Shown one piece after another: positions 12,380 through 13,055 of a stretch of 64,000 nt of DNA. The DNA is from Opitutus sp. GAS368 (GTDB lineage Bacteria; Verrucomicrobiota; Verrucomicrobiia; Opitutales; UBA953). The translations under genes and the position numbers were made by a program. The stretch spans positions 1 through 64,000 of the forward strand of contig CAMBGQ010000003.1 of the NCBI GenBank assembly GCA_945866215.1. The letters are read 5' to 3'. Each line of letters opens with the position of its first letter. Position 1 is the first letter of the stretch. Under the pieces are notes generated by a model. That model ran no database searches. It was not told the DNA's origin and saw only the letters and a list, made by a program, of their open reading frames with translations.

Positions 12380-12519
12380 GACGTCATCCTGTCGGCGTGC
12401 ATCGCTTCGGTCAACTGCTCGCACGGTCTCCGACCGTATCGAATTCATCTTTACGAGATGGCGTGCGAACAGATTTTTTACGCGTCGGCGGCGGCGTGCC
12501 GGCGAGACGAAAGTTTCCT

Positions 12520-12529
12520 CTTGCGCAAG
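12520..12529. promoter_or_regulatory. Palindrome CTTGCGCAAG in the ATPase/RHH divergent region
   Basis: Perfect ten-base inverted repeat overlapping the proposed -35 box of the RHH gene and about 140 bases upstream of the ATPase start. Ribbon-helix-helix proteins bind short palindromes, so this is a candidate operator. Only one copy was seen. Confidence 0.3.
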
Positions 12530-12548
12530 CGCAGGTTATACCTATTAC
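12521..12548 (+). promoter_or_regulatory. Possible sigma70-type promoter of the RHH gene
   Basis: TTGCGC (12521-12526) and TATTAC (12543-12548) with a 16-base spacer, 25 bases before the GTG start. Four of six matches in the -35 and in the -10 box make it plausible but not strong. Confidence 0.3.
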
Positions 12549-12572
12549 TCGCTACCAAGAGTTAACCGCAAC

Positions 12573-12965
12573 GTGACGAACCGAACCGAAACCCCGAGCG
12601 AAAGCCTAATCACCGTGTCGCTTCCCCCGAAGCTACATTCCGAAGTAGTCGCCTTTCAGCATCGGTCCGGTCTGAGCACCTTGAGCGAAGTAATCCGTCA
12701 TGCGCTCGATCGTTACGACGACTCCCGTCCTTCCCTGGAGACCACCCGGTCTCGTCAGGTTTCTTTCCGAGTCCCCTCGGAGCTCCGTACTCGCATCACC
12801 CGTCAGGCGCGCAACGCCCGGGTGAGCGTGGGGCGAATCGTCAGGGTGGCGCTTCAGGCGCTGCCCTCAAACCCAACAACGATCCAAAAAAAGGACACAC
12901 CTATGGCTAAAAAGAAGGCTGCTAAGAAAAGCGCCAAGAAAGCCACCAAGTCGAAGAAGAAGTAA
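12573..12965 (+). CDS. Small DNA-binding-like protein: two ribbon-helix-helix units plus Lys-rich tail
   Basis: The 130-residue reading from GTG 12573 has two units of the ribbon-helix-helix pattern. The first is [17 protein letters not shown] followed by [14 protein letters not shown] (about 11-46). The second is [19 protein letters not shown] followed by [13 protein letters not shown] (about 61-98). An RHH fold normally needs two chains; two units in one chain could form a single-chain dimer. Residues 111-130 are a histone H1-like [16 protein letters not shown] tail. Upstream of 12573 the frame runs antisense to the ATPase, so it is not used. A role as regulator of the divergent ATPase or as a nucleoid protein is inference. 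The exact start is uncertain. Confidence 0.65.
12903..12965 (+). CDS. Possible separate 20-residue Lys/Ala-rich peptide (internal in-frame start)
   Basis: The ATG at 12903 lies in the frame of the two-RHH protein and is preceded by AAAGGA, 8 bases upstream, one of the few Shine-Dalgarno-like sites in this window. Translation from it would give a peptide with 12 lysines in 20 residues and nothing but Ala, Ser, Thr and Met besides. Either this is the tail of the longer protein, or the tail is also made on its own. A strong terminator follows. Confidence 0.4.
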
Positions 12966-13023
12966 TTCTTCTCTGACTATTCCGTCCCTCGGGGCGGATG
13001 GCGCCGGCACCCCCGGTTATCAC

Positions 13024-13055
13024 AAGGACCCTCGCAAGGGGGTCCTTTTCTTTTC
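13024..13055 (+). terminator. Rho-independent terminator after the RHH/Lys-tail gene
   Basis: Stem AAGGACCC/GGGTCCTT (13024-13031 and 13040-13047) with an eight-base loop, followed by TTCTTTTC. It separates the gene from icd. Confidence 0.85.

Follow-up and report, generated by a model that had tools for sequence, protein, structure and literature searches.

We propose that the gene at positions 12573-12965 of the window, i.e. the whole 64,000-nucleotide stretch of Opitutus sp. GAS368 DNA analysed here, is probably a chromosomal gene with two products, a ribbon-helix-helix (RHH) pseudo-dimer formed by a single chain and carrying a histone H1-like tail, and the same H1-like tail in free form made from a nested start, with a role in organising the chromosome. 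From the comparative analysis we infer that translation also initiates internally in vivo and that the protein binds DNA and acts in the nucleoid. One-chain RHH pseudo-dimers are known, the differences here being the tail of H1 type and the location on the chromosome; new is the in-frame ATG (12903) with which the tail opens, a conserved codon and putative nested start that is accessible to experimental testing. Among open-licence PMC papers we found no literature on this tandem-RHH-tail family. The gene, the features mapped inside it and the terminator-like hairpin 3' of it lie on the forward strand; no strand is assigned to the intergenic region shared with the divergent ATPase gene.

Translation of 12573-12965 yields a product of 130 residues reading from a GTG start to a TAA stop, along which Pfam RHH_1 scores above cut-off twice, the best stretch being residues 63-96. 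AlphaFold2, run on an input of 18 sequences of the genus, predicts a strand (10-17) followed by two helices (19-32 and 37-46) in unit 1 (residues 10-46; 12600-12710) and again a strand (61-68) followed by two helices (69-82 and 86-95) in unit 2 (residues 61-95; 12753-12857). Mean pLDDT is about 80-89 over both units, and the tail is predicted to be disordered, with pLDDT below 50 in much of it. By its EHH-EHH architecture and its RHH_1 matches the window protein belongs to the RHH superfamily. Among the genus copies unit 1 has a dN/dS of 0.11, and unit 2 and the tail have 0.08 each, indicating that purifying selection acts on both RHH units and on the tail. Across 14 members of the order T14, S38, R42 and A44 are invariant in unit 1 and Q62, S64, R66, S85, G87, R91 and A93 in unit 2; those located in the strands (T14, Q62, S64, R66) suggest a common DNA target. 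Translation, RHH_1 matches, predicted structure and dN/dS confirm the presence of two RHH units and a lysine-rich tail in one chain, as read in the initial annotation, with the correction that the 20-residue tail contains 11 lysines and not 12.

The GTG start is unchanged in 40/40 distinct coding sequences of the genus. In several copies of the genus the frame is closed by a stop codon a few codons 5' of it, and the window offers no further in-frame start before one within strand 1, leaving GTG as the only plausible start. The concern that the first unit might not be translated is met by its conservation as protein behind this invariant start. Homologues with only one RHH unit, which would likewise have spoken against the tandem layout, do not characterise the family found; two units are present in 4/4 distant members of the order. 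An exception is L202, which matches the second half of the search profile only. As a second exception, in one genus copy (L077, 5001 onwards) unit 1 joins the end of the tail directly, unit 2 and the junction being missing, which may reflect a deletion or an assembly error.

The search profile for the tandem RHH (A2), built from 13 tandem sequences, matched 209/372 genomes of the order in 60/100 genera, mostly as a single copy. In the genus, 35 of 37 genomes contain a match. A phylum-wide draw gave matches in 37 of 288 genomes, all 37 belonging to the same order. Judged by this distribution, the tandem RHH gene counts among the core genes of the order. Homologues combining two units with a tail, which the initial annotation had suggested looking for, were found, and the one-chain tandem RHH with an H1-like tail is the usual layout in the order. 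The Opitutales gene was also observed at 95-96% identity in L043 and L040, titled Akkermansia muciniphila and Polynucleobacter meluiroseus, bins which seem to be mislabelled.

The flanks of the gene in the window are a heavy-metal P-type ATPase gene, oriented divergently, and icd. The divergent layout with a common region of 124 bp and the confirmed heavy-metal type of the ATPase would fit a metal-responsive repressor of this ATPase, one of the two roles considered in the initial annotation. However, over 44 loci (stretches of mostly 6.3 kb) the divergent ATPase adjoins the gene in only 6/44, all of them in the window's family f1, and the neighbours are a LolA-like gene (26/44), the aspartate aminotransferase gene aspC (27/44), icd (12/44) and parB (9/44). 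Since the ATPase neighbour is confined to f1 while the gene is found order-wide, we consider a metal regulator highly improbable and rejected this candidate; Pfam and NCBIfam scans also returned no NikR-type C-terminal metal-binding domain, residues 111-130 being the lysine tail. The neighbours speak for a core chromosomal gene, and of the two roles a nucleoid-type protein appears to be the better idea. In the nine parB loci parB precedes the tandem RHH gene by about 2-3 kb (e.g. L083:894-1901 and L140:327-1280), and some of the ParB proteins encoded near it have a lysine-rich N-terminal stretch; we read the link to parB as genomic context.

Structural comparison of the predicted fold by Foldseek and VIA-align returned chains of the F-plasmid relaxosome as top matches, followed by single-chain Arc and, lower, by VirC2. 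The best-matching chain, 9f0x_G (Z 10.0, rmsd 3.2 over 96 residues), we take to be TraY, judging from the structure titles and PMC12117103. F TraY is described in sections of PMC12117103 as a monomer holding the entire RHH dimer fold in one chain. The one-chain RHH pseudo-dimer is thus already known, so that the initial view of the window protein as unusual because RHH proteins dimerise is only partly right: F TraY is a natural precedent for the tandem itself, and what sets the window protein apart is its tail of H1 type and its place on the chromosome. Sharing the tandem RHH in one chain, the window protein differs from F TraY in sequence (12-18% identity across alignments) and in being encoded by a chromosomal core gene without a match in the plasmid records searched. 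A search of solved structures by sequence gave a best E of 0.024. The engineered single-chain Arc (1u9p) is a structural match with Z 6.7, and Agrobacterium VirC2, a single-chain RHH pseudo-dimer, a weak one with Z 3.6. To our knowledge TraY carries no H1-like tail, and we know of neither an H1-like tail nor a nested start in VirC2 or single-chain Arc.

The match to the TraY fold, together with weak sub-cutoff matches to antitoxin RHH models, could be taken to indicate a plasmid-type accessory protein, i.e. a TraY-like relaxosome factor, or the antitoxin of a toxin-antitoxin pair. Against this, 72,556 plasmid records and 50,697 phage records contained no match at all, the gene is mostly single-copy across the order, and the neighbours are core genes instead of a relaxase or toxin gene: no toxin gene adjoins it as expected for a type II antitoxin, neither in the window, between the ATPase gene and icd, nor order-wide, where LolA-like and aspC genes are the neighbours. 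An antitoxin or conjugation factor was rejected on the grounds of the missing plasmid and phage matches and the core-gene neighbours, and we regard this as the least probable of the explanations weighed here.

A lysine-rich tail is present in 71 of the 88 order proteins examined; counted from the end of unit 2, the tails are about 18 to about 250 residues long. As 17/88, mostly from family f14, have no lysine-rich tail by the criterion used, the tail would be dispensable in these members. The tails resemble chlamydial HC2 and bacterial H1-like proteins (PF07382) in their Lys/Ala repeats and variable length, and some of the fused tails of the order pass the HC2 cut-off, as does a stand-alone ORF of a sister genus (G181); HC2 matches were present in G120 and G069. 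Unlike HC2, the H1-like part here extends an RHH protein in frame, the window tail being just 20 residues long, and neither the window protein nor any other protein of its genome reaches the HC2 cut-off. A stand-alone H1-like gene was not found elsewhere in the window's genome, one of the searches for it having had no positive control. HupB and HupS, the HU-H1 fusions, consist of a folded N-terminal domain and a disordered H1-like tail. Passages of PMC9239181 describe the same layout for AlgP and PhaF and the view that AlgP-type tails neutralise the charge of DNA. The N-terminal domains of AlgP, PhaF and the HU-H1 fusions differ from the window protein in not being RHH domains. The window gene has a further peculiarity, a putative internal start at the junction with the tail. 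We know of no internal start releasing the tail in AlgP, PhaF or the HU-H1 fusions.

The initial annotation described the layout of the tail correctly and overlooked the internal start, the frozen leader and the hairpin. A nested in-frame ORF (12903-12965; ATG at 12903-12905) would encode the 20-residue H1-like peptide, whose reading is under the tail dN/dS of 0.08 given above and whose initial Met (Met111) is invariant in 40/40 distinct sequences of the genus. It is preceded by an A/C-rich leader (12868-12902) containing the Shine-Dalgarno-like AAGGA at 12891-12895 with a spacer of 7 nt, present in 6/6 distinct genus leaders tested. A junction Met, taken as any Met among the 17 residues that follow unit 2, occurs in 54 of the 71 tailed proteins of the order, comprising 19/29 genera and 9 families, and the linker residues beside it differ between clades; beyond the junction, Met accounts for 1 in 6327 tail residues. 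The junction Met is absent in 17/71, including 5/5 proteins of family f8 and L169 of family f11, where it was lost. A Shine-Dalgarno core was found in 16/46 distinct leaders, among them the six of the window's genus and 7/8 of genus g25. In genus g22 the Met is present in 4/6, with no hairpin and a Shine-Dalgarno signal not above shuffles. In f11 and f20 a Shine-Dalgarno sequence is missing from most leaders at the junction Met, which is not evidence against initiation because the aspC and RHH starts in this order mostly have none either. The window gene hence shows the conserved internal start codon and the start-region signals of an in-frame nested gene. Parts of PMC11005335 report N-terminal proteoform pairs from internal in-frame starts in Salmonella and cite cases in E. 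coli. The likeness to such genes within genes lies in the predicted shorter product, which would comprise the C-terminal part and be initiated in frame within the gene; the Salmonella and E. coli pairs rest on ribosome profiling and blots, whereas the support here is comparative and extends over many genera.

Codons 87-109 (12831-12899), ending just 5' of the internal ATG, form a synonymously frozen block with a mean synonymous diversity of 0.060 versus 0.257 in the rest of the gene, a value reached in 0/5000 column shuffles; the lowest synonymous windows in neighbouring genes are 0.276 (icd), 0.356 (ATPase), 0.308 (argC) and 0.166 (rplM). Within leader codons 99-110 dN exceeds dS (0.115 versus 0.065), opposite to the rest of the gene. 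In f11 and f20 (n=4 sequences for f20) the eight codons before the Met have a lower dS than the rest.

The frozen block contains an RNA hairpin (12843-12867), predicted from randomisation and covariation, with an 11-bp stem (12843-12853 paired with 12857-12867) and the loop TCA, located 35 nt upstream of the internal ATG. Compared to synonymous randomisation its stability has mean z values of -2.7 in g1, -3.1 in g23 and -3.0 in g25, and group means near zero in g22, g24, f11.g55 and f20. Outside g1, g23 and g25 it is generally absent, a few single sequences being low (e.g. f14.g71, -3.6). The genus was represented by ten copies, L153 and L154 being left out of this set though included in the junction-Met count, and in two of the ten the hairpin is weak (z -0.4 and -0.9). 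In 17 sequences of g1, g23 and g25, with g24 and g22 left out, the covariation score was 0.324 versus 0.219 in shuffled alignments and was reached in 0/500 shuffles, values not to be read as probabilities because the sequences are related; pairs with changes in both partners (4 versus 2.9 shuffled; 106/500 shuffles) are not exceptional in number. The fold of the whole region 12820-12925 is unremarkable (z -0.74), the local hairpin alone standing out. A search of the genome for the hairpin-leader DNA elsewhere gave only a weak 22-base match.

On the 5' side, the 124-bp intergenic region (12449-12572) contains TTCCTCTTGCGC, conserved in most genus copies. TTGCGC (12521-12526) and TATTAC (12543-12548), 16 nt apart, are a possible promoter; a scan of the locus for a sigma-70-type consensus found no site. 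A search for an upstream operator motif in 41 genera found no common palindrome, only A-rich words and, in some families, a TTGAC-like word. On the 3' side a scan identified an intrinsic-terminator-like hairpin followed by a T run (13024-13047), with AAGGACCC...GGGTCCTTTT conserved in most genus copies. The 3' region 12966-13047 (TAATTCTTC..., hairpins, terminator) is strongly conserved in the genus and might be more than a terminator.

A natural split is seen in sister genus g24, which belongs to the same family and has kept the ATPase neighbour. Its RHH protein has a tail without Met and no hairpin signal, and a separate ORF of 122 residues (L117:3578-3946) is located 59 bp downstream, matching Pfam HC2 with 4e-15. 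This split arrangement, resting on the one genome G181, shows the H1-like part as a separate gene at the same location. With the H1-like gene directly downstream, it fits an origin by fusion and hence an explanation according to which the gene yields nothing but the full-length fusion and the protein is an ordinary DNA-binding protein with a tail, the junction Met being a relic of an ancient fusion of an RHH gene with a stand-alone H1-like gene or a chance linker residue; the 17/71 tailed proteins without junction Met point in the same direction. A relic should decay, however, but the Met is kept in 9 families amid a changing linker, and the synonymous freeze stops at the ATG, with dS below dN in the leader, so that we consider this explanation unlikely, though it deserves more weight than any other alternative. 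The frozen block and hairpin could also be an RNA or DNA control element rather than part of a translation start, e.g. an mRNA stabiliser, a processing site, the start of a 3'-derived sRNA or an internal RHH operator. The constraint does reach about 70 nt upstream, beyond the needs of a ribosome-binding site, the hairpin is conserved, and a terminator-like hairpin lies 3' of the gene. Yet a control element leaves unexplained the order-wide Met, the Shine-Dalgarno placement in g1 and g25 and the fact that immediately 3' of the ATG the tail evolves like a protein, and Rfam returned no family at gathering score, the two sub-threshold matches both being located in the 3' region; it appears quite unlikely to us.

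The preferred reading of a two-product gene suggests the following model. The product from GTG 12573 would be a single-chain RHH pseudo-dimer binding DNA via its paired strands and carrying a flexible H1-like lysine tail, and the product from ATG 12903 would be the tail in free form, a small polypeptide of HC2/H1 type that condenses DNA and has 20 residues here, but as many as about 240 in other families. The hairpin, the unstructured leader and the Shine-Dalgarno-like sequence would, in the window's family, together constitute the start region of the second product inside the coding sequence of the first. Because the GTG has no clear Shine-Dalgarno sequence whereas the ATG is preceded by AAGGA, we infer that in the genus the free tail would be made in larger amounts than the full-length product. 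Both would probably serve in compaction or organisation of the chromosome, the RHH part selecting sites and the tethered or free tail neutralising DNA charge. More tentatively, and with the chances slightly against it, this may extend to the whole order, the core gene giving two chromatin proteins, so that a single mRNA would govern both specific nucleation and bulk condensation of DNA, with the intragenic hairpin and ribosome-binding site as tuning elements in the window's family.

If true, this would define an order-wide family of chromosome proteins which Pfam and NCBIfam scans name just as generic RHH, and it would represent a compact route by which one gene supplies both a protein that selects sites and one that condenses DNA in bulk. 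It would also bear on the origin of bacterial H1-like proteins, as fused, nested and stand-alone forms would exist side by side in one family.
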